A DNA stretch of 27,944 nt from a virus: the IMG/VR virus record IMGVR_UViG_3300031669_000191, positions 1 to 27,944 of that record; one strand, given 5' to 3'. A program made the position numbers and the translations under genes. The notes beneath the pieces were generated by a model. It ran no database searches and was not told where the DNA came from. It saw only the letters and a program-made list of their open reading frames with translations. Each line of letters opens with the position of its first letter. Position 1 is the first letter of the stretch. This document shows positions 5,491 through 18,948 of the stretch, piece by piece.

Positions 5491-6456
5491 ATGGCTATTG
5501 ATGAAAATAATAGGATAGAAGTTGTTCTTCCAGATGACACAATAATAGGTGCTATTGATGGTACAGTCATAGCAGATGTTACAGGTCAAGGTGACGTTCC
5601 TATTACATTAGATTCTGAAGTGGTCGATGTTGATGCAACCGGTCAGGGAGACATTCCAATTACACTCGATTCCGAAGTTGTGGATGTTGATGCAACAGGT
5701 CAAGGTGATATACCTGTAACATTAGATTCTGAAGTGGTTGATGTTGATGCTACTGGTCAGGGTGATATTCCAATCACATTAGATTCTGAAGTAATTACTG
5801 CTGATATAGCAACTATAAGCAATATTGTTCCACAATTTGATGACACCGATAAACAGGCTATAAGTCTGTACGCTAAAAATATTATCGCTGGTGATACCCC
5901 TCTAGTGAGTTCTGACTGTGGTGGGCTAAAGACCATGAGTTCTCGCCACTGGCACATGCACAACGGAAACATGTTCACAGCACACATAGACCAAGCTGTG
6001 ACGAACATTGGTGAAATGACTGTTATTGCTTTCAATACACCAGCGACAGGAGAGATTCACTTATGGATCACAGCGTCTTCAACACACGTCGCAGAATTGT
6101 ATCTGTATGAGAACCCAAGCATAGACGTAGACGAAGGCGTAGACCTAACACCTATAAACCGCCGTAGAATTGTACCAATACCAACTTCTGTGCTGTCAAC
6201 TATAGAAACTGCGCCAGAAGTAGGTAAGGTAACGTACTTCTTGGAAGCAGCAGCAGATACGGCGAACATTACCACGACCACAGAAATTGACCATACACCC
6301 CTAATTGGTGGTGAGGGAAAAAAAGCGTTGGGCGATAATGCTGACGAACGGTATGGATATATCCTTGCTACTTCACAGCAATACGCTGTTGTGTTGAAGA
6401 CTGGCACAGACGATGATGCCACACATCACTTAGCGTTGTTATGGATTGAGAGATAA
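5491..6456 (+). CDS. Virion surface protein with N-terminal tag, four 19-residue repeats and an outer domain
   Basis: This 321-residue protein has three parts. Residues 1-20 (MAIDENNRIEVVLPDDTIIG) are nearly the same as the start of the protein at 6521. Residues 27-102 are four tandem 19-residue repeats of the type DATGQGDIPITLDSEVV. Residues about 115-321 form a beta-rich domain that begins with SRHWHMHNGNMFTAH and ends with a strand HHLALLWIER, a type I associate with phage structural proteins. The likely picture is an anchor, a spacer stalk and an outward-facing head, as in head fibres. The ribosome site is weak (AAAGAA before the ATG). The part encoding the outer domain has clearly higher G+C (about 43-45% in lines counted by hand) than neighbouring genes, suggesting separate acquisition. 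A receptor or carbohydrate role is possible but not shown. Confidence 0.6.
   Translation: MAIDENNRIEVVLPDDTIIGAIDGTVIADVTGQGDVPITLDSEVVDVDATGQGDIPITLDSEVVDVDATGQGDIPVTLDSEVVDVDATGQGDIPITLDSEVITADIATISNIVPQFDDTDKQAISLYAKNIIAGDTPLVSSDCGGLKTMSSRHWHMHNGNMFTAHIDQAVTNIGEMTVIAFNTPATGEIHLWITASSTHVAELYLYENPSIDVDEGVDLTPINRRRIVPIPTSVLSTIETAPEVGKVTYFLEAAADTANITTTTEIDHTPLIGGEGKKALGDNADERYGYILATSQQYAVVLKTGTDDDATHHLALLWIER
5569..5796 (+). repeat. Four tandem 57-bp coding repeats
   Basis: Four in-frame copies of a 57-base unit encode variants of DVDATGQGDIPITLDSEVV. Copy 1 (5569-5625) is the most divergent (starts IADVTGQGDVP). Copies 2-4 differ mostly at third codon positions, so selection has kept the protein repeat while the DNA drifted. 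Such a block can change length by recombination and probably sets stalk length. Confidence 0.85.
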
Positions 6457-7064: not shown

Positions 7065-7589
7065 ATGGCAACTTATGATTTAGACAACTTAATCCCTATC
7101 TTAAGATTAAAGATTGGTGATATAGATGATACAGCTTATAGATATCCAGATGAATGGCTTTCCATAGCCTTAATAGCTGGTGCTGATAATTTAAGTAAGT
7201 GGATGAATTTTAAATATCTATTAGACGATTCTAATCTAATTTATAGGAATCCTAATTCATCTACATTTATCTTTGATGAGGATACCTATGGAGTCCTCGA
7301 ACCTGGGATTTCCATGATTTTTGTGATCATGGCTGCTTATATTATCTTAGAAGGAAGTTTGGAAAACTCAGCTTGGGATTATGTAAGTTGGAAAGATGCT
7401 GAAATTTCTTTTTCTAATTTAGAATCTTCTAGGGCTAGAAATAGAATTCTAGAGAGTCTATGGCAAGAACTCTTAGCTAATATAAAACCTCCTACAAAGA
7501 GATTAGCAAGAGCACTAAAAAACTCATTGCCTGGATATTTACAAAACCAATATGAAACAGGAGAACCATCACGGAAAATAAATAAATAA
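7065..7589 (+). CDS. Head-tail adaptor/connector candidate
   Basis: This 174-residue, mainly helical protein has the N-terminal pattern DNLIPILRLKIGD...YRYPDEWLSIALIAGADNL, the kind of start found in phage head-tail adaptors that bind below the portal. It continues with a central hydrophobic helix (ISMIFVIMAAYIILEGSLEN), a charged helix ending in SRARNRILESLWQELLANI, and a basic tail. The order capsid, surface proteins, adaptor, then closure protein is the usual siphovirus order. The start lies 5 bases after the previous stop with only a weak ribosome site, suggesting coupling. The assignment uses the N-terminal pattern and context. The hydrophobic helix probably packs inside the bundle rather than spanning a membrane. 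Confidence 0.55.
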   Translation: MATYDLDNLIPILRLKIGDIDDTAYRYPDEWLSIALIAGADNLSKWMNFKYLLDDSNLIYRNPNSSTFIFDEDTYGVLEPGISMIFVIMAAYIILEGSLENSAWDYVSWKDAEISFSNLESSRARNRILESLWQELLANIKPPTKRLARALKNSLPGYLQNQYETGEPSRKINK

Positions 7590-7598
7590 GGAGATACA

Positions 7599-8765
7599 AT
7601 GAAAAAAAGGGTACTTTTTTGGGGCGATGCAATCGCTTCGACTGGCTTTGCAACAGTGTTACATAATATTATAGGAAATTTACCTAAAAGAAGTTTTGAT
7701 AGACACCAGTTAGGAATTAATTATAAAGGCGATCCTCATGATTATGATTGGAGAATATATCCAGCATTAATTGGAGGAGATTATTTAGGACTAAATCGTA
7801 TAGCTGAGTTTGCAACATTAAAACCAGATGGAATTTTTATACTAAATGATGTTTGGGTAGTAGGAAGATTTCTTAAAAAGATAAAAGAAACTTGGAAAAA
7901 TATTCCACCTATAGTTGTTTATTTTCCAGTAGATTCAATAGACTTAGATTTAGATTGGTTTAAAGATTTCGATATTGTAAAGAAAATAGTAGTCTACACT
8001 AAGTTTGGATATAACGAAGTTAAAAAAATTATTCCCAATTCTGAGATTGAAATTATTCCACATGGAACAGACACATCAATCTTTTATAAAAAATTTGAAA
8101 CTAGAGAAGAAGCTAAAAAATTATTGTTTCCCAATCAAGATTTAAAAGAATCTTGTATAGTTTTGAATGCTAATAGAAATCAACCAAGAAAAAGAATAGA
8201 TTTAACCATACAAGCTTTCTCCATATTTGCTAAAAATAAACCTAAGGATGTTAAATTATATCTCCATATGGGTATAAAAGATATGGGGTTTGATATCCTA
8301 AAGTTATGTTACCGTTATGGAGTAGATGAAAGATTAATAATTTCTAATACTAAAAAAATTAACCAATCAGTACCTATAGAAAAATTAAATTTAATTTATA
8401 ATGCAGCGGATATAGGTTTAAATACTGCAATAGGGGAGGGTTGGGGACTCGTAAACTCTGAACATGCAACTACAGGAGCACCACAAATTGTGCCAAATCA
8501 TAGTGCTCTTACTGAAATATATAATGACTCTGGTTTATTAGTGCCAATATTTCAATGGCTTACAAATCCAGATACTTTAACAGTTAGTGGGTATGTTCAT
8601 CCGGTAAATGTAGCGAATAGGTTAGAAGAACTTTACCAAAATAAAGAATTATATAATGAATTGTCTAAAAAATCATTAGATAAATGGACAGATGAGAAAG
8701 CATCTTGGGAATACATAGTTAAAAACCAATGGGTCCCTCTATTAAAAGATGCCTATAAAGTTTAA
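7599..8765 (+). CDS. Glycosyltransferase, GT-B fold (GT4-like)
   Basis: This 388-residue protein has the two-domain plan of retaining GT-B glycosyltransferases that move a sugar from a nucleotide-sugar donor. The N-terminal domain opens VLFWGDAIASTGFATVLHNI with a glycine-containing loop. The middle has IIPHGTDTSIF (about 152-162) and a basic RNQPRKRID segment (193-201) placed where GT4 enzymes bind donor phosphates. The C-terminal donor site has YNAADIGLNTAIGEGWGLVN with an E-x7-E pair (E280 and E288), the hallmark of GT4-type enzymes. There is no signal peptide or membrane segment, so it is cytoplasmic. The full length is intact, with a good ribosome site (AAGGAG, 5 bases from ATG). It stands between neck genes, an unusual place. 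The substrate is unknown: a virion protein, a host wall polymer or phage DNA are all possible. Confidence 0.85.
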   Translation: MKKRVLFWGDAIASTGFATVLHNIIGNLPKRSFDRHQLGINYKGDPHDYDWRIYPALIGGDYLGLNRIAEFATLKPDGIFILNDVWVVGRFLKKIKETWKNIPPIVVYFPVDSIDLDLDWFKDFDIVKKIVVYTKFGYNEVKKIIPNSEIEIIPHGTDTSIFYKKFETREEAKKLLFPNQDLKESCIVLNANRNQPRKRIDLTIQAFSIFAKNKPKDVKLYLHMGIKDMGFDILKLCYRYGVDERLIISNTKKINQSVPIEKLNLIYNAADIGLNTAIGEGWGLVNSEHATTGAPQIVPNHSALTEIYNDSGLLVPIFQWLTNPDTLTVSGYVHPVNVANRLEELYQNKELYNELSKKSLDKWTDEKASWEYIVKNQWVPLLKDAYKV

Positions 8766-11237: not shown

Positions 11238-12422
11238 ATGGCGAAACGACTCGCAATCCCTTCAGAGGAACTTAAATTAACTATTGTTGGTATTTTTGAT
11301 GAACTTGATGTCACAAGAGTTCAAAGACTAACAATTAATAAGGATGTTCCTTCTACCGATGTTTATGAAATCGGTAATAACCAGATGGTAGGAGTTACAA
11401 CTGATGCCGCTAATGTTACATTAACATTTAGTGTGTTTGATGTTGGTATTAGAACTTTTGCTGTGTTATCAGGTAATGATCCAGATGACTATCCTGCTGA
11501 TGGTGCTGATATCGCTGATTTGGGAGAAGTAGACGCTATTCTTTATGTAAAGAGTGCGACTGTCGCTGACTTTGCTAAATCTGCCCACGCTCATAGATTA
11601 CAGGTAAGAGACTTTACTTTCAATTATTCTGTTGATGCTGAATCTTCAGAGGATTATACTTTGATAGGTTCATCTAGTAGGTGGTTCAAGAATGATGTTA
11701 TGGTAGATAGGTTTACTGAAGGAACAACTTCATTCTCTCTTAGTGAGACCCCTATTGTGCTTAATAATGGCAATTATGGTCTATCTGTAATTCTTGATGG
11801 AGAGTATCTTGAGGAAGTAGCTGTTGCTCCTGCAACTGGTGAATACAGAATCGTAGATACTACATTAACAACGTTTGACACAAGAACAGAACAAGTTCTT
11901 GTTGTTTACCATGCTAATCCTGCTGGTTCAGCTTGGAGTTATGTATCCGATACTAGCTCTCCTGCTGCTACTAAGGGACGTGATGTAACCATTGTAATCG
12001 TTGCGGAAACTATCCCTAGAGTACAATCAGTTACCATCAATGGTACACTAAATGTCCAACCTGTTAGTGAAATGGGTAATGCAAATATTGTTGGCTATCA
12101 GAGCCAAACTCCTGCTGTAGATGGTACTTTAACCGTATTTGATACAGACACTGAATTACTTGATCTTTTGTTATATGGATCAATAGATTCTGGTGCAACT
12201 GAATTTGAATTCGGTGTTGAATGCGTTGCATCTGGTGTAGACCTTGAAGTTCAGATTTACGATCCTTGTGATGACGAATCAATCTTAAAGACCGTTTATA
12301 TTCCGGAGTTAATACTTACTGGAGATAGTTATACTTCAACAGTAAATCAAAATGCCCAACATACATTCAACTGGAAGTCTAACACTGCTCAAATTGTAGT
12401 GTATAGTGGTGCAAAACCTTAA
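11238..12422 (+). CDS. Major tail tube protein with duplicated tube domain
   Basis: This 394-residue protein is the likely tail-tube subunit. It lies between tail terminator and tail chaperones and has a strong ribosome site (AGGAGG at 11223-11228). It contains an internal duplication. Residues about 26-79 (VTRVQRLTIN, DVYEIGNNQMVG, LTFSVFD, FAVLSG) align with about 259-314 (IPRVQSVTIN, PVSEMGNANIVG, GTLTVFD, LLLYGS). Later strands correspond too (AILYVKSA with EVQIYDPC). Between the copies, about 160-255, sits an extra beta segment (SFSLSETPIVLNNGNYGLSV onward). Most siphovirus tube proteins have one such domain and form hexamers. A doubled subunit could form trimeric rings with the same pseudo-sixfold symmetry, as known for phage T5 pb6. 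The stop is followed by a strong hairpin, as expected for a highly expressed gene. Confidence 0.72.
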   Translation: MAKRLAIPSEELKLTIVGIFDELDVTRVQRLTINKDVPSTDVYEIGNNQMVGVTTDAANVTLTFSVFDVGIRTFAVLSGNDPDDYPADGADIADLGEVDAILYVKSATVADFAKSAHAHRLQVRDFTFNYSVDAESSEDYTLIGSSSRWFKNDVMVDRFTEGTTSFSLSETPIVLNNGNYGLSVILDGEYLEEVAVAPATGEYRIVDTTLTTFDTRTEQVLVVYHANPAGSAWSYVSDTSSPAATKGRDVTIVIVAETIPRVQSVTINGTLNVQPVSEMGNANIVGYQSQTPAVDGTLTVFDTDTELLDLLLYGSIDSGATEFEFGVECVASGVDLEVQIYDPCDDESILKTVYIPELILTGDSYTSTVNQNAQHTFNWKSNTAQIVVYSGAKP

Positions 12423-12464: not shown

Positions 12465-12508
12465 AAGGGGCTATAGGGGCGAATAATTTCGCTCATCTAT
12501 AGCTCCTT
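12465..12508 (+). terminator. Strong hairpin after the tail tube gene
   Basis: AAGGGGCTATAG (12465-12476) pairs with CTATAGCTCCTT (12497-12508) over 12 bp with one G-U pair. Two more T residues follow (12509-12510), so the 3' arm ends in TTTT. The loop carries its own GCGAA/TTCGC stem with a TAAT tetraloop, giving a two-stage hairpin. It resembles a rho-independent terminator with a short U-tract, probably leaky, reducing read-through from the tube gene into the chaperone and tape-measure genes. The next gene has its own ribosome site (AAAGAGGAG at 12517-12525). Confidence 0.6.
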
Positions 12509-12531
12509 TTACATATAAAGAGGAGTTTATA

Positions 12532-13239
12532 ATGGAATCAATAGATAAAAATGACGTGGATATTAGTAGATTATTTCAATGGAAGAAAAAAGTTAGCATA
12601 GAATTTATGGGCAAAACATTAAATGCCTATTTAAGAATCATAGGAGATGCTGAGACAAATAGAGCTAGAGTATTTGCTTTACGTAAATCAGCAGAAATGA
12701 GGAAAATTCTTAGGGATAAAGATTCTGATGAGAAACTAGCTTATCTTCCAGAAAGTGGAGTTGTACGAAAGGAAGAATTAATACAAGGTTTATTAGTTCT
12801 TTATACTAAAGATGCTGGAAATGAAGCTGTTAGGAGTCTAAAATATAATCTTCCTACCGAACCTAAAGCTGATGATAAATTAGAAAAACATGAGGATTAC
12901 CAAGAAAAAATAGACGACTTCCCTCAATGGAGAGAAGATGCAATTAAAGAATTTATAACTGATAGAGTTAAGCAGTATGAAGAAAAACTATTAAATAAAG
13001 ATTATGATGAAATATATGAAGAATACATTCATAATTTAATAGACCAAATATGTGAATTAGAAATGCTAACTAAATATAGAGAGATGTGTGTATTTTATGC
13101 TACTTATAAAGATGAAGACTTAACTGAAAAAGTTTTTAATGAGTTTGAGGTATTAGAAAATCTTCCTAAAGATGTTAAAAGTCAATTAATTGGCGAGTAT
13201 AACTCATTAGAGATTAGTGGAGAAGACCTAAAAAAATAG
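12532..13239 (+). CDS. Tail assembly chaperone (gpG-like, zero-frame product)
   Basis: This 235-residue protein lies between the tail tube and tape measure, the usual site of the tail-assembly chaperone that keeps the tape measure soluble and recruits tube subunits. Its N-terminal part (VSIEFMGKTLNAYLRIIGDA) is beta-type, and the rest is helical and very acidic/basic, typical of this role; sequence conservation in the family is low. The gene ends CTA AAA AAA TAG, so its last sense codons form the slippery heptamer A AAA AAA in the correct phase for a -1 slip. Ribosomes that do not slip stop here and make the short form; those that slip make a 330-residue long form ending at 13523. The position and frameshift signal together make the assignment convincing. 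Confidence 0.7.
   Translation: MESIDKNDVDISRLFQWKKKVSIEFMGKTLNAYLRIIGDAETNRARVFALRKSAEMRKILRDKDSDEKLAYLPESGVVRKEELIQGLLVLYTKDAGNEAVRSLKYNLPTEPKADDKLEKHEDYQEKIDDFPQWREDAIKEFITDRVKQYEEKLLNKDYDEIYEEYIHNLIDQICELEMLTKYREMCVFYATYKDEDLTEKVFNEFEVLENLPKDVKSQLIGEYNSLEISGEDLKK
13230..13236 (+). promoter_or_regulatory. Programmed -1 frameshift site A AAA AAA
   Basis: Seven consecutive A residues lie in zero-frame phase A|AAA|AAA, immediately followed by the TAG stop at 13237-13239. This fits the X XXY YYZ rule for tandem slippage. A stop codon next to the slip site is known to favour slippage. Downstream, GAGTAAC (13244-13250) can pair with GTTACTC (13299-13305), beginning 7 bases after the slip site, and AGCTA (13238-13242) can pair with TAGCT (13255-13259), allowing a pseudoknot-like fold. 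Confidence 0.7.
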
Positions 13240-13523
13240 CTAGGAGTAACGCAATAGCTCACTTGTGGTCTATTACAAAAGAGCTAAAAGTTCCTCTAGT
13301 TACTCAAATCACACAAATAGAGGACATACCTTATACGGTATCATACGTTGTAAGAAAGAGACAACAAGTGGATAATATTAATGAACTTCCAGAAGAAAAA
13401 CGTCCTCCTGAACTAATGATTTGGGATGGTAGCGTAGATGAATTAAACGAATGGATTAATAACACTCTTTCTGGAAAACGAAAAAGTACCGCAGATATTG
13501 TTATAGATAATGTAGAGGGCTAA
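13236..13523 (+). CDS. Frameshift extension of the tail chaperone (T part of G-T fusion)
   Basis: This frame is in -1 register to the preceding gene and continues from the slippery A run without a stop: after the slip the next residues are IARSNAIAHL, then WSITKELKVPLVTQITQIED onward. The fused product would be 330 residues (235 plus 95). The frame has no ATG; the earliest usual start is a TTG at 13263 whose nearest AGGAG (13242-13246) is 16 bases away, too far for efficient initiation. The frame is closed upstream by TAG at 13215-13217, before the slip site, so entry by frameshift is the simplest explanation. The T extension in lambda-like phages contacts the tube subunit. The TAA at 13521-13523 ends one base before the tape-measure ATG. 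Confidence 0.7.
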   Translation: MARSNAIAHLWSITKELKVPLVTQITQIEDIPYTVSYVVRKRQQVDNINELPEEKRPPELMIWDGSVDELNEWINNTLSGKRKSTADIVIDNVEG

Positions 13524-13524
13524 T

Positions 13525-16500
13525 ATGGCTAACGATCTTAGTAAATTAACTCAAGATGTAAAAAATACACAATCAGAAGTAGATATTTTAAAGGGTAAGA
13601 TAGTTGAACTTACCCAAGCCCTTGAACAACTTCTACTTACTGCTTCAAAATCTGGTGGAATTGCCACACCTGCTGGACTAGAAGCTAGTAAACAACGTGT
13701 GTTGGAAGACCCTGAGAAATGGGGTGGTAGGACTGGTGGTGGTTCTAGAATACGAATCAAAGAAGAAGCAGAAGAAATAAGAAAACAAGCACAAGCAGTT
13801 AATAATGTATCTAAAGAGTGGAGAGAACAATCTACCCTTTTGGATAGAGTAAAAGGTCAGTTAAAAGAATTACAGAAAACACCAATTCAATTAGACCTTG
13901 ACATTACTAATGCACAACAAAAATTAGATAATCTTAGAAAATTAATACGACAGGCTCAGGCTGAACTAAAAGACCTTGCATTTGGTTCAGGTGGTCAAGT
14001 AATGAGACCTAGTGTAGGTAGTGATGATCCAAGTAAGTATAGAGTTCTTACAGATAAACAAATTGATAAAAGTTGGGGAGGAGAAGATGCAGAATCCTTT
14101 AAAAAGTCTGCACAAAGTATTAGAGATAAAATTGCTGCTTTAAACGATTTACAAAAAGAGGAAAAAGAACTAACCTCTACATTTGAAGAGAGGGCAGAAG
14201 CCCAACGAGAATTAAATAAAATTCAAGATGCAGAGAATGCTGAGAAAAGGGTTGCTGATATTGCACAAGAAGTTTCTCAGGAGAAAGAACTAACTGGTGC
14301 AATAAGGGAACAGACACAAGCTCGTCAAGAATTAGCTCAAGAGAGGAAGAGGGTAAGGGACACACTTCCTCCATCCCCTGATGAATTAATGGATGGATTG
14401 GGTACGGGACCAAAAGGTACAAAAGAACAAAGAATTTTTAGTGAAGATGAGGGACTCAAAGCATTAGCTGGACAAAGTAAAGAGGCAGAGGTAGCAGCCA
14501 AGAGTTTGCAAGTAGCAATAGAGAATGTTAATAAAGAAATTGGTAAATATGGCGATAGCGTTACTGGACAACAGACATCCATAAGGCTTTTAGAGAATGG
14601 ACTTAGACAATACGATACTACAATAGTAACTGCTGGTGGAGCTACTCGTAAGTTTACTCAATATTTAGATGAAAATAATAGAATTTTAACTAAAGCCCAG
14701 GTAGAGGCTAGAGAAACTGCGGCTGCTGCTAAAGAACTAGCTACTGCATTCAAAAATGCTGATGCGGCTAGATATGATATTGCAGCTAAAGCTGCAGCAA
14801 AAGCTGGATTTGATCCAGAGAAAGATTTAAAAGATGTATATACCCAACATCCATCCGGAGTAAGTTTCTTAAAATATGAAATGGAGGATGGTATGGGAGT
14901 AACCCAAAAGTATGAGGTAGTTCTAGATAAGTTTGGTAAAGAATTAAATAGAACTAACAGACGACTTTTGGGTTTTGCGGAATCTGTTAAAAAGAATACA
15001 ATTGAGTTAATTAAATGGTCAGTTGGTGTTACATTAGTTTATGGTACTTATTATAAATTTCAGCAATTATTAGAAACAGCTATAGATAATCAATCTAAAC
15101 TAGCCGTTGTTGCAGTTACTTTGGGTAATGCCCAAAGAGATTTAAATGACATTTTTGATGATGCGGCTAAAGTAGCATTATTAACTGGTGAAAGTATTAA
15201 TGCTGTATTAGAGACTTATACATACGCTTATAGAGCAGTTGGTGCAATTGCCGATCCAATGATAAGAACTGCTAAAGCAAATCAATTATTAACAGATGCT
15301 ACTATCCTTAACAAACTATCTTCATTAGATGCAGCCTCATCTATTGATGTGTTAGCAGGTTCTTTACGACAGTTGCAAGGTCCAGCTATGACTGTGGGAG
15401 AGGCATTTGATTATGGTACTGATCTATTAGATAAATGGGTAGTAACTACAAGAAATGCTAATGTTGATTTAGCTACATTAGCCACAGCTTTTTCAGTAAC
15501 TGCTGAGAGTGCAATGAATGCGGGTATGTCTGTAGAGGAATTAAATGCTGTTATTGCCTCATTAGCAGAAAAAATTGGTGGTTTAGGAGGAAGAGAAACT
15601 GGTAATGCAGTAAGAGCATTAATTGGTGGTGTTTACCAAGAACAAGCTACCACTATTTTAGCTAAGTATGGTATTGCTGTGAAAGATACTGCTGGACAAA
15701 TGAGAGACTTCTTAGAAATCTCTAGAGATATCTATGAATTATACGACCAAGAAATTATTTCAGCTAGTGAATTAAATAAAATTGGTTTAGTATTGGGTGG
15801 TGGAGTTAGACGTGGGCAGCAATATGTAGCCTACTTATCAGATTTTGGCAATGTTTTGGAGATAGTAGAAAAGCAGTCAAATTCCTCTGGAGCATCTCAA
15901 CAAGCTCTCGGAATTATAATGGATACACTCCAAGTTACATTAACTAAATTAAGTAACTCTGTTCAAAACCTTGCACAAACAATGGGAACTGAGGGAGGAT
16001 TACTAGGAGCAGCTAATTCAGTTCTAAAGGTGATGACATTTTTAGTAGATACAACAGAACAACTTGTATCTCTATTTGGTAAATTAACACTTCCAGCTGC
16101 ATTACTTGGGTTAGGTGCTGGTTACTTTAGTTTAGGTGGGTCAATAGGACAGGCTAAACGTGCTGATTTTGCTGGTAAAATAGGTAGTGGTACTCAAAAT
16201 ATGATGGGTGGAATGATGGGAATGCTTCCATTTTTCCAAAAATCAGACCTTCAAAATATAAAACCTGTAGTTGGTTCAGATGGAAAGATAAGTCATTTCC
16301 AAAAAGTCCCAACTGGTCTTATTGCTCTTCCTCCTGGTGTATCTATGGGCGGGATACAAAAAACAGGAGCACAAACGATCCCTGCACGTGCAGGAGCATT
16401 TATGCAGCAGAACTATTGGGGAATGATGCCTGGTGCATTAGCTGCTGTAAGTAGAGTGGGAGAAGAAGATTATGCTGGTGCTGGAATAACCATGGCTGCT

Positions 16501-18948
16501 ACTATTGGTGGAGCTTTAGTAGGAGGACCTTGGGGAGCGTTATTTGGTACTATGATTGCAGAAACATTTATAGCAGGGATGAGAGATGCTGAAGCTGATC
16601 TAACTGATATATTAGTTTCTCCATTACAAGAGTATACAGAAGAGGAGAAAGGAGTAGTAGAGCTATCTGATTTAGAGGCAAGACGAAAAATAAATACAGA
16701 AGCAGTCTTAGCAGAAGGAACGATTCCAATATTAGGTTTGCTTGATACATTCGTAAATAATATGAATGCTAAGATTTTTCAAGCATTTGGAGCAGAAGGT
16801 GCTCCCATATATGGTCAACCAACTAATCTTTTTGAAAAGCCAGAAAAACTTGGTTATATAAAACCAGGTGTAAAAGTAGATGAGATGGCTCTAATGTATC
16901 TAGAGTTAGAAGCAGCTAGATATGATGCATTGAAGAAGTCTGGAAGAGCACTTAATGATGCTACCAAAGCAAGACATCAAGAAATTCAAGTTTTAATAGA
17001 AGAAGCAAAACTATTAAGTTCCAGATCATTAGACCCAATCTCAATAGATAAATCTACTTTTTCTATAGAAATGAAACGACTTAATGAAGATTTTGGAGGT
17101 TATCTCAATGACCTATCAGTAGGATTTCAAAAGCAATTACGTACTCAAGTGACAGAAGGAGAAATCCCTACTAAAGAATTTACAACAGGTCTTGAAACTG
17201 CTCAAGGTGCTAGACCTAACGTTCTTGCAATACAAGCAGCATTATCAATTGCATCAGGAATTGCTGAAATGAGGGGTGAGGGAGAAAAGATACCTATAAC
17301 CAAAAAGAACATGGAAGAGTTTTTTAATTTAGTAACTGAGGCATCTCCAGATGTTGTTACTACCCTTACACAAATGACCACTAAAATAGTTGACCTTTCA
17401 GCAGGATTAGATTCTTTAGAGGGATTGGATGTAACTGCTACAGTAAATATAGAAGGAATAGATTGGACTAGGGAACAATTAGAGGATCAAATAATAGAAA
17501 CTCTTAAAGATATACCGATTTATGCCGAGTTTGCTAAAGATGCATTAGAAGACATGGCAATGGCTAAAATTCCTCAACCTCAAATGGTTATGACAGGATT
17601 TGAAGATCGAACTACCGCACAAATGGATATGGTAATTCAGAAAGCTAGGGATTTACAAGACGAACAATTAAAAGCCATATATCAAGCCGATCCTACAGAT
17701 GAAATGGGTATAGATTGGTATGAATGGCAAACAAAACAAGCTGGAGATGCTCAACCTATTTTCGTTTATTTAGGTGAATTAATGGGATATCATATGGCAA
17801 AGGGACTTCTTGGTACAGAATACCTAAATCAAGCTCTTGAAGATTTAGTTAATTCAATGCAAATTCCTGATTTAGAATTTGGATATCAATTTCTTGATAC
17901 AACCCAAGCCCAAATGCAAACTATAATGCCACAATATGAGGCGATAAGACAATCTATTCTATCTGCTGGTGGAAAATCTGAAGAATCTGCATTACTAACA
18001 TTTTTTAGTAATTCTTCTAGTCCAGTTTATATGCAAAAAGATTGGACAATTATACAGTTTCTATTAGGTCAACTTCTAAAAACAGAACAAAATGCATTAA
18101 AAACAAATAGAGACCAGCTAAAAGCCGCAGAGAAGCAATTGGAAGGCATTTATAACCTCCCTGGTGGAGCCAGTTTTTATGTGCCATTTGATGCCTATGC
18201 TATGAAGTATAAACCAGAGGAAGAAGGTGGTATTCCAGATTTTGAAATACCAGTTCAAGATTTTCAGATTGCAGTTGATAAATTTGGAAGTATATTAGAT
18301 CAATATAAGAATTATAATGTAGAGGCTATTCAATCTCTTGTAGGTGTATTTGAGTATATGGAAACTCAATTTGATAAGAATAGACCAACTCAACCAAAAA
18401 CCTATGATGTAGAGGCTATTCAATCCCTTGCAGGTATGAAATTTCCTGAAGAACCTATTGATACAAATGTTTTAAATATTGGAGATATACTTATGACTGC
18501 TGGTGGAAATCTTTTAGAAAATATAGTAACAGCCCTGACAAAAACTTTTGAAGTATTCTTTCCACCGAAAACTGAAGAATCAACTTCTGCTGAGGATGCA
18601 AAAACCATCAAAACCTATGACGTAGAGGCTATTCAATCTAGTCTATCTCCTTTAACATCTAAACTTAGTGAACTTGTATCCCAATTAACCCTTCAAAATA
18701 AGCAAGGTCTCGGAAGTACTGAGTTTGATCTAGCAGAAACTCTATCTGGAGGGGCAATTACTTTGTCAGATATTAACTTCACAACTCCAGATGTTTCTAC
18801 TAAACTATCAATGAATGTAGATGTGAGAACCACACTACACCTTGATGGACAGGAAATATGGGATTCTATTAAAGATTATGCCCGTACAGACCTAGTTAAT
18901 TATGGTGGAGTAGCTGGATCAGCTAGTGCGAATTACACATTTGCATAA
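13525..18948 (+). CDS. Tail tape measure protein
   Basis: At 1807 residues this is one of the two largest class of proteins here and sits directly after the chaperones, the standard tape-measure position. It sets tail length and leaves the tube during DNA injection. Residues 1 to about 480 are charged coiled coil (many Glu/Lys/Gln heptads). Residues about 515-815 resemble the conserved tape-measure core (NAGMSVEELNAVIASLAEKI, GGRETGNAVRALIGGVYQEQ, VLGGGVRRGQQYVAYLSDFG). Hydrophobic, possibly membrane-inserting segments occur near 490-510 (WSVGVTLVYGTYY), 855-875 (PAALLGLGAGYFSLGG) and 965-1017 (Ala/Gly-rich, including ATIGGALVGGPWGALFG). The C-terminal third has three YDVEAIQS-type repeats. 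At the usual 0.15 nm per residue, the tail would be about 270 nm. GAGGG at 13515-13519 serves as ribosome site. I see no lysozyme or peptidase motif. Confidence 0.85.
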   Translation: MANDLSKLTQDVKNTQSEVDILKGKIVELTQALEQLLLTASKSGGIATPAGLEASKQRVLEDPEKWGGRTGGGSRIRIKEEAEEIRKQAQAVNNVSKEWREQSTLLDRVKGQLKELQKTPIQLDLDITNAQQKLDNLRKLIRQAQAELKDLAFGSGGQVMRPSVGSDDPSKYRVLTDKQIDKSWGGEDAESFKKSAQSIRDKIAALNDLQKEEKELTSTFEERAEAQRELNKIQDAENAEKRVADIAQEVSQEKELTGAIREQTQARQELAQERKRVRDTLPPSPDELMDGLGTGPKGTKEQRIFSEDEGLKALAGQSKEAEVAAKSLQVAIENVNKEIGKYGDSVTGQQTSIRLLENGLRQYDTTIVTAGGATRKFTQYLDENNRILTKAQVEARETAAAAKELATAFKNADAARYDIAAKAAAKAGFDPEKDLKDVYTQHPSGVSFLKYEMEDGMGVTQKYEVVLDKFGKELNRTNRRLLGFAESVKKNTIELIKWSVGVTLVYGTYYKFQQLLETAIDNQSKLAVVAVTLGNAQRDLNDIFDDAAKVALLTGESINAVLETYTYAYRAVGAIADPMIRTAKANQLLTDATILNKLSSLDAASSIDVLAGSLRQLQGPAMTVGEAFDYGTDLLDKWVVTTRNANVDLATLATAFSVTAESAMNAGMSVEELNAVIASLAEKIGGLGGRETGNAVRALIGGVYQEQATTILAKYGIAVKDTAGQMRDFLEISRDIYELYDQEIISASELNKIGLVLGGGVRRGQQYVAYLSDFGNVLEIVEKQSNSSGASQQALGIIMDTLQVTLTKLSNSVQNLAQTMGTEGGLLGAANSVLKVMTFLVDTTEQLVSLFGKLTLPAALLGLGAGYFSLGGSIGQAKRADFAGKIGSGTQNMMGGMMGMLPFFQKSDLQNIKPVVGSDGKISHFQKVPTGLIALPPGVSMGGIQKTGAQTIPARAGAFMQQNYWGMMPGALAAVSRVGEEDYAGAGITMAATIGGALVGGPWGALFGTMIAETFIAGMRDAEADLTDILVSPLQEYTEEEKGVVELSDLEARRKINTEAVLAEGTIPILGLLDTFVNNMNAKIFQAFGAEGAPIYGQPTNLFEKPEKLGYIKPGVKVDEMALMYLELEAARYDALKKSGRALNDATKARHQEIQVLIEEAKLLSSRSLDPISIDKSTFSIEMKRLNEDFGGYLNDLSVGFQKQLRTQVTEGEIPTKEFTTGLETAQGARPNVLAIQAALSIASGIAEMRGEGEKIPITKKNMEEFFNLVTEASPDVVTTLTQMTTKIVDLSAGLDSLEGLDVTATVNIEGIDWTREQLEDQIIETLKDIPIYAEFAKDALEDMAMAKIPQPQMVMTGFEDRTTAQMDMVIQKARDLQDEQLKAIYQADPTDEMGIDWYEWQTKQAGDAQPIFVYLGELMGYHMAKGLLGTEYLNQALEDLVNSMQIPDLEFGYQFLDTTQAQMQTIMPQYEAIRQSILSAGGKSEESALLTFFSNSSSPVYMQKDWTIIQFLLGQLLKTEQNALKTNRDQLKAAEKQLEGIYNLPGGASFYVPFDAYAMKYKPEEEGGIPDFEIPVQDFQIAVDKFGSILDQYKNYNVEAIQSLVGVFEYMETQFDKNRPTQPKTYDVEAIQSLAGMKFPEEPIDTNVLNIGDILMTAGGNLLENIVTALTKTFEVFFPPKTEESTSAEDAKTIKTYDVEAIQSSLSPLTSKLSELVSQLTLQNKQGLGSTEFDLAETLSGGAITLSDINFTTPDVSTKLSMNVDVRTTLHLDGQEIWDSIKDYARTDLVNYGGVAGSASANYTFA
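18310..18639 (+). repeat. Three spaced YDVEAIQS repeats in the tape measure
   Basis: The motif (N/T)Y(N/D)VEAIQS occurs at residues 1596-1604, 1626-1634 and 1697-1705 of the tape measure. The first two are exactly 30 residues apart and the third is 71 further. The DNA copies are also alike (the core TAGAGGCTATTCAATC occurs in all three), suggesting fairly recent duplication of a small unit near the C-terminus. Confidence 0.7.

Follow-up and report, generated by a model that had tools for sequence, protein, structure and literature searches.

A conserved RNA stem at a probable −1 frameshift site between putative tail-chaperone frames of uncultivated tailed phages

Frameshifting in tail-chaperone genes is widespread, and the RNA signals involved are mostly deduced from a single sequence. 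In phage lambda and its counterparts among other long-tailed phages, two overlapping frames (G and G-T) lie between the tube and tape-measure genes, an XXXYYYZ slip site stands shortly before the first frame ends, and a −1 shift leads into a short C-terminal domain (PMC5009743); the locus described here has the same layout, with a predicted shift. G-T frameshifts of −1 in the same gene pair have been described in the haloarchaeal tailed viruses HCTV-1, HCTV-2, HCTV-5 and HVTV-1 (PMC5009743), and a cluster of HK97-like tail chaperones gave 6-7% frameshifting in reporter cassettes (PMC3711429). The usual spacer between a slip site and its structure is 5-9 nt (PMC7618472).

The window, i.e. the whole stretch of DNA that was analysed, is IMG/VR virus record IMGVR_UViG_3300031669_000191, a linear environmental phage sequence of 27,944 bases (Table 1). 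An earlier note, made from the letters of this sequence, had proposed a programmed −1 frameshift joining two tail-chaperone frames between the tube and tape-measure genes. The frameshift is strongly supported by the comparative evidence below.

Table 1. Features of the putative chaperone locus and its neighbours in the window
Feature	Position	Strand	Details
Probable tail tube (major tail) gene	11238..12422	+	394 aa; weak PF18906, phrog_985, position
Terminator-like hairpin, tube-chaperone intergenic	12465..12508	+	AAGGGGCTATAGG / TCTATAGCTCCTT, then T-rich
Ribosome site of the zero frame	12520-12525	+	GAGGAG
Zero-frame product, putative gpG-like tail assembly chaperone	12532..13239	+	235 aa; TAG 13237-13239; conserved, 68 aligned sequences
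Slippery heptamer	13230..13236	+	A AAA AAA in 70/72 distinct sequences, A AAA AAC in 2/72
−1 frame, putative gpT-like domain	13236..13523	+	95 aa after slip; KKIARSN... conserved from slip, 67 aligned sequences
Slip-to-stem spacer	13237..13243	+	7 nt
Stem 5' arm	13244..13250	+	GAGTAAC; its GTAAC is the family-wide 5' arm
Predicted inner hairpin, inside the stem	13255-13260 with 13281-13286	+	UAGCUC/GAGCUA; from the minimum-free-energy fold
Usual family 3' arm site (+45 to +51)	13281..13287	+	degraded to GAGCTAA; alignment
Candidate second helix (would form an H-type pseudoknot)	13292-13298 with 13318-13324	+	TCCTCTA/TAGAGGA; p = 0.07, not established
Stem 3' arm	13299..13305	+	GTTACTC; window-specific partner, perfect 7 bp
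Tape measure protein gene	13525..18948	+	1807 aa; PF10145 PhageMin_Tail 3.5e-11, above cut-off

Gene order, predicted products and host

The two frames lie between the tube and tape-measure genes, as in pairs of the G / G-T type. The tube gene matched PF18906 (Phage_tube_2) weakly, below the Pfam cut-off (E = 0.008), and the PHROGs virion structural protein family phrog_985 at 3e-4; in relatives, the same cassette is preceded by genes 52-63% identical to it. The order of tube gene, two frames and tape-measure gene is repeated in a distant relative (L118). Elsewhere in the window, a glycosyltransferase-like gene (judged by eye) lies at 7599-8765 within the head-tail structural module, and L118 has one in the corresponding position (620-1909). 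The coding sequence at 5491-6456 contains a tandem repeat (5581-5792) of 3.7 copies of a 57-base unit, GQGDIPITLDSEVVDVDAT, the unit being a whole number of codons.

The zero frame terminates CTA AAA AAA TAG, and thus reads as the earlier note stated, with A AAA AAA in phase and a stop as the next codon. From the slip, the −1 frame gives KKIARSNAIAHLW... and runs to TAA at 13521-13523, immediately ahead of the tape-measure gene, for a predicted fusion of 330 aa. No significant match for either frame was obtained from PHROGs, Pfam, PDB sequences or two fold libraries, even with 67-68 aligned sequences; the best match to a chaperone family was phrog_19026 ('tail assembly chaperone'), reached by 3 of 68 sequences at E = 0.028. 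The predicted model of the zero-frame product has a mean pLDDT of 91 and consists of a beta hairpin followed by helices, and the −1 domain is modelled as helical (pLDDT 80); PDB and BFVD fold searches with both models yielded no significant match, and no relative of either frame was found among named phages. Of the name given by the earlier note, tail chaperone pair, the part based on gene order and frameshift architecture stands, and no recognisable protein family adds to it. It is from this order and architecture that we infer the identity of both products as tail assembly chaperones.

In 60 of 71 sequences, against 15.6 in shuffles, the gap between the tube and chaperone genes holds a stem of 9 bp or longer whose 3' side is rich in T, and the chaperone start lies a median of 24 bases further on. 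The letters of the stem vary among relatives and the pairing is maintained; a stricter consensus scan did not find it. The hairpin has the appearance of a leaky terminator or of an mRNA end, which would reduce the expression of the chaperone and tape-measure genes relative to tube, and it may set the ratio between them. L006 carries a GIY-YIG-like homing endonuclease gene (7263-7976, translation judged by eye) as an insert between these two genes.

The host is probably bacterial. DnaB was found in 14 of the 16 phage records of the group and MCM in none; no bacterial DNA polymerase III alpha was found either. Two relatives come from genome bins, L117 being a Parcubacteria MAG contig and L118 a Bathyarchaeota MAG contig with a syntenic phage module. 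The −1 domain was present in only 1 of the 257 searched genomes of the class of L118, and the phage records of the group encode DnaB, not MCM; on both counts this bin assignment is doubtful, and an archaeal host was set aside.

The slippery heptamer among relatives

Relatives were found by scans with the tube protein and with alignments of both frames, which gave about 100 loci from viral contigs and the two from genome bins. The slip site is covered by 115 loci including the window (72 distinct sequences at 95% identity), and the in-phase heptamer is kept in every one of them; the four loci lacking it are contigs that end before the site. The two A AAA AAC sequences (L095 and L114) still carry an XXXYYYZ heptamer. 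Search patterns were degenerate back-translations of the peptide, and loci retrieved through other patterns carry the same heptamer, so that its conservation is not a search artefact. Other lysine codons of the zero frame are AAG in 30% of cases, and the 49.8 kb of coding sequence upstream contain A7 only 23 times. The heptamer is thus in the right phase and selected at synonymous sites, as expected of a frameshift signal, and it is conserved close to where the first frame ends, the −1 frame being open, as in G / G-T pairs. Relatives that had lost the heptamer while keeping an independent start for the second frame were sought, and none was found among these loci.

The stop of the zero frame may follow the heptamer at once or come up to 19 codons later. 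It directly follows the slip in 30 of 72 sequences, with 16 changes of this trait over the tree. Nor is ATA enriched at the slip, where it accounts for 28 of 70 isoleucine codons, compared with 270 of 565 elsewhere. The immediate UAG of the window is therefore incidental and was rejected as a component of the signal. A dnaX-type signal was also rejected: dnaX has an upstream Shine-Dalgarno-like stimulator (PMC3711429), whereas in the 72 sequences of this family upstream Shine-Dalgarno matches were not enriched, whether of at least 4 bases (24 sequences vs 27.5 expected) or of at least 5 (2 vs 8.6 expected).

The downstream stem and its crossing helices

In most relatives, the tenth base after the heptamer begins a 5' arm, G[UC]AA[UC]G[CG], encoded by Ser-Asn-Ala/Gly codons (AGY AAY GCN), leaving a spacer of 9 nt. 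Its partner lies at different places in different clades: at +45 to +51 (GCRTTRC) in clade 1 (47 sequences), at +57 to +63 with the same 5' arm in clade 2 (14 sequences) and at +34 to +40 in clade 3 (8 sequences). The 3' arm thus ends at +51, +63 and +40 in the three clades, and at +69 in the window.

Covariation was searched for by scanning all column pairs from −45 to +110, with ranking among mostly paired columns. The top two pairs were 11-50 (z = 10.3) and 14-47 (z = 12.8), all of whose positions are third, synonymous codon positions. Among the 47 sequences of clade 1, pair 11-50 is UA in 23, CG in 18, UG in 4 and other in 2, and pair 14-47 is UA in 24, CG in 17, UG in 1 and other in 5. 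The phi coefficients were 0.79 and 0.86, against 0.21 and 0.30 for the crossed partners (11-47 and 14-50); as the crossed partners lose the link, shared or correlated base composition was ruled out as its cause. On a tree built from the zero-frame protein with the stem columns excluded, there were at least 10 switches of pair 11-50 and at least 11 of pair 14-47. In phylogenetically independent pairs of sequences, either both sides change in concert or only one does, and changes in opposite directions are almost absent (4.2:0 and 5.4:0, vs 1.4:0.7 and 1.6:1.1 for the crossed partners), the sign tests on these pairs alone being too small for significance (median p of 0.125 and 0.06). In L100, a UCU serine codon goes with a compensating change to C10-G51. 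Fold energy compared with synonymous-codon shuffles had a mean z of −1.8 at the site and of −0.2 to −0.5 at seven control places. No double change was seen in the 8 rows of clade 3, whose stem hence adds no covariation. RNAalifold reported no structure for clade 1, although the explicit pair count and the scan detect the stem, and this miss is likely due to the 10-25% of rows that lack some of the pairs.

As about 70 diverse relatives show, the downstream stem is an evolutionarily kept RNA feature, and it is very probably kept in order to control the frequency of slippage. Covariation places a conserved 3' structure 5-9 nt past the slip in the family; for the window, the corresponding evidence is that of a single sequence.

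In the window, as in its nearest relatives (L004, L006, L008 and L012), the canonical 3' arm has been lost. The earlier note had pointed to the complementarity of GAGTAAC and GTTACTC after a 7-nt spacer and had allowed that a 7-bp match might occur by chance. The complementarity is perfect, and the best stem starting 5-13 nt past the heptamer exceeds those of synonymous-codon shuffles (p = 0.017), which speaks against chance; the 3' arm is not conserved at that position in relatives and shows no covariation above shuffles. The minimum-free-energy fold of 13240-13310 has −17.6 kcal/mol, and the window fold energy gives z = −2.9 against synonymous shuffles. With dinucleotide shuffles z was −3.1 for 13240-13310 and −3.95 for 13237-13310, and only −1.75 when upstream sequence was included (13200-13310). 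Of the 3' stimulatory structure proposed by the earlier note, the 5' arm is that of the covarying family stem and the exact partner is lineage-specific. The only near copy found, L002, encodes an identical protein and has the same reading around the site; L004 has no significant stem (p = 0.59 vs synonymous shuffles). Five relatives (L006, L008, L009, L012 and L019) have a hairpin of 8-9 bp in a shifted register, pairing +15 to +22 with +33 to +40 (GCAAUAGC/GCURUUGC type, 14 nt from the slip), which in close relatives replaces the lost canonical stem.

The loss of the canonical 3' arm in this subclade and the lack of conservation of the new partner can also be taken to mean that no specific stem acts in the window phage, the frameshift being real, the 7-bp match fortuitous and the heptamer with its adjacent stop sufficient, all the more as an A_AAA_AAA of another gene shifted at about 10% in a cassette test (PMC3711429). 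Such a reading is possible and is the most serious competitor, and we still consider it doubtful: the window stem uses exactly the 5' arm of the family and stands out from the shuffles in both stem and fold energy, and the partner moves within the family, as its 3' arm takes three other positions there. We infer that the stem acting in the window is 13244-13250 with 13299-13305.

The stimulator could instead be a full H-type pseudoknot, formed by this stem and a crossing helix. The earlier note had put forward a helix of AGCTA (13238-13242) and TAGCT (13255-13259); the letters are as given, and the helix, starting 1 nt after the slip, is not conserved. The best helix between spacer and loop was indistinguishable from chance (p = 0.13), and covariation analysis of both helices proposed there found nothing above shuffles in relatives. 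The AGCTA/TAGCT pseudoknot was consequently rejected as a family feature, no crossing helix being conserved or covarying. Helices from the loop to downstream sequence are over-represented, with 9 of 47 at p < 0.05 where control geometries give 2-5, and 7 of 47 at p < 0.01 where they give 0-2. Strong ones are seen in L016 (12 bp), L010 (11 bp), L061 and L063 (6 bp each), and the window has its own candidate (Table 1). In the covariation scan, no crossing pair ranks alongside the stem pairs, and the crossing helices differ in position and are absent from close kin, all candidates for the second helix of an H-type fold being limited to some lineages. A pseudoknot as the stimulator is thus unlikely, and the crossing helices may be real local elaborations in some lineages.

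Proposed mechanism and comparison with known systems

With high confidence, we propose that a ribosomal −1 slip on A AAA AAA yields a gpG-like protein and a gpGT-like fusion, and that the 3' stem stimulates this slip. Most ribosomes translating 12532-13239 would halt at the TAG and release the gpG-like chaperone of 235 aa. With tRNA-Lys in both the P and A sites on the heptamer, a minority would slip back by one base, read AAA AAA ATA and continue to 13523, producing the gpGT-like fusion of 330 aa. At that moment, with the two tRNAs still on the heptamer, the ribosome would meet the stem-loop 7-9 nt downstream at its mRNA entrance, which would raise the slip rate; this spacing fits the usual one, which supports stem-stimulated tandem slippage of two lysyl-tRNAs. 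By analogy with lambda, the short form would coat the tape measure protein, and the long form would recruit tail-tube subunits through its C-terminal domain; the ratio of the two forms would matter. As in the HK97-like cluster, shifting of a few percent would be expected in the window phage.

The fusion could also arise by transcriptional slippage, the polymerase stuttering on A7 and a fraction of the mRNAs, with one extra A, encoding the fusion in frame with no need for a ribosomal shift. Homopolymeric A runs can slip during transcription, and a review and a survey deal with both routes for poly-A sites (PMC5009743, PMC3711429). At this locus, the run is of exactly seven A in 70 of the 72 sequences, never longer and always in the phase for ribosomal slippage, whereas transcriptional slippage is named for An with n > 7 (PMC3711429); two lineages are reduced to A6C and yet retain the ribosomal heptamer, and a conserved stem at ribosomal spacing would go unexplained. 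This route is improbable.

Contrary to the earlier note, which gave the −1 frame no ATG, there is one at 13416-13418, about 60 codons past the slip and too late to encode the domain; the sole earlier start-like codon, TTG 13263, was rightly said to lack a usable ribosome site, having no Shine-Dalgarno at normal spacing. That these two codons make the −1 frame a separate gene, or that it is a remnant, with no programmed shift in either case, is scarcely credible, since the conserved protein begins exactly at the slip (KKIARSN), ahead of any start codon, the −1 frame runs continuously through the slip with no start codon between its preceding stop and the slip in any of the 72 distinct sequences, and relatives share 37-61% identity in the −1 protein, which is thus translated.

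About 70 natural variants amount to a well-resolved frameshift element with synonymous covariation, in which it becomes testable which part (heptamer, stem position or stem strength) sets the protein ratio, and which shows how the partner strand of a stimulatory stem can be relocated under continued selection on the protein. The slip site and gene order also provide a handle for annotating tail chaperones that family libraries do not recognise. We lean towards regarding these stems as an undescribed family of frameshift-stimulating stem-loops with a relocated 3' arm, which would act together with the upstream hairpin in setting the ratio tube : G : G-T : tape-measure. If this is true, three codons (Ser-Asn-Ala/Gly) hold the 5' arm in place, the 3' arm has been shifted several times inside the coding sequence, the stem persists while its partner changes position, and the family spans a large group of uncultivated tailed phages. 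Rfam gave no match in the window, and no tail-assembly frameshifting with a covarying stem-loop was found in a search of the open literature, which takes in few subscription journals.

Compared with known chaperones, the pair of the window has no sequence or fold match found. Its slip site is A AAA AAA where lambda has G GGA AAG. The lambda slip site is not known to have a 3' stem of this kind, unlike the family described here with its covarying stem. Bacterial insertion-sequence and dnaX −1 frameshift sites, with an A-rich heptamer and a 3' stem-loop or pseudoknot, resemble the family in having a hairpin a short distance from such a heptamer. Among the haloarchaeal viruses, HCTV-2 slips on A_AAA_AAC (PMC5009743), the variant found in L095 and L114; the hosts of the present group look bacterial. 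The HK97-like cluster shares the proposed role and, so far as the searches show, belongs to a different protein family. The frameshift is thus ordinary in kind, and what is new relative to these systems is an unrecognised protein family and a covarying, relocating stem at the slip site.
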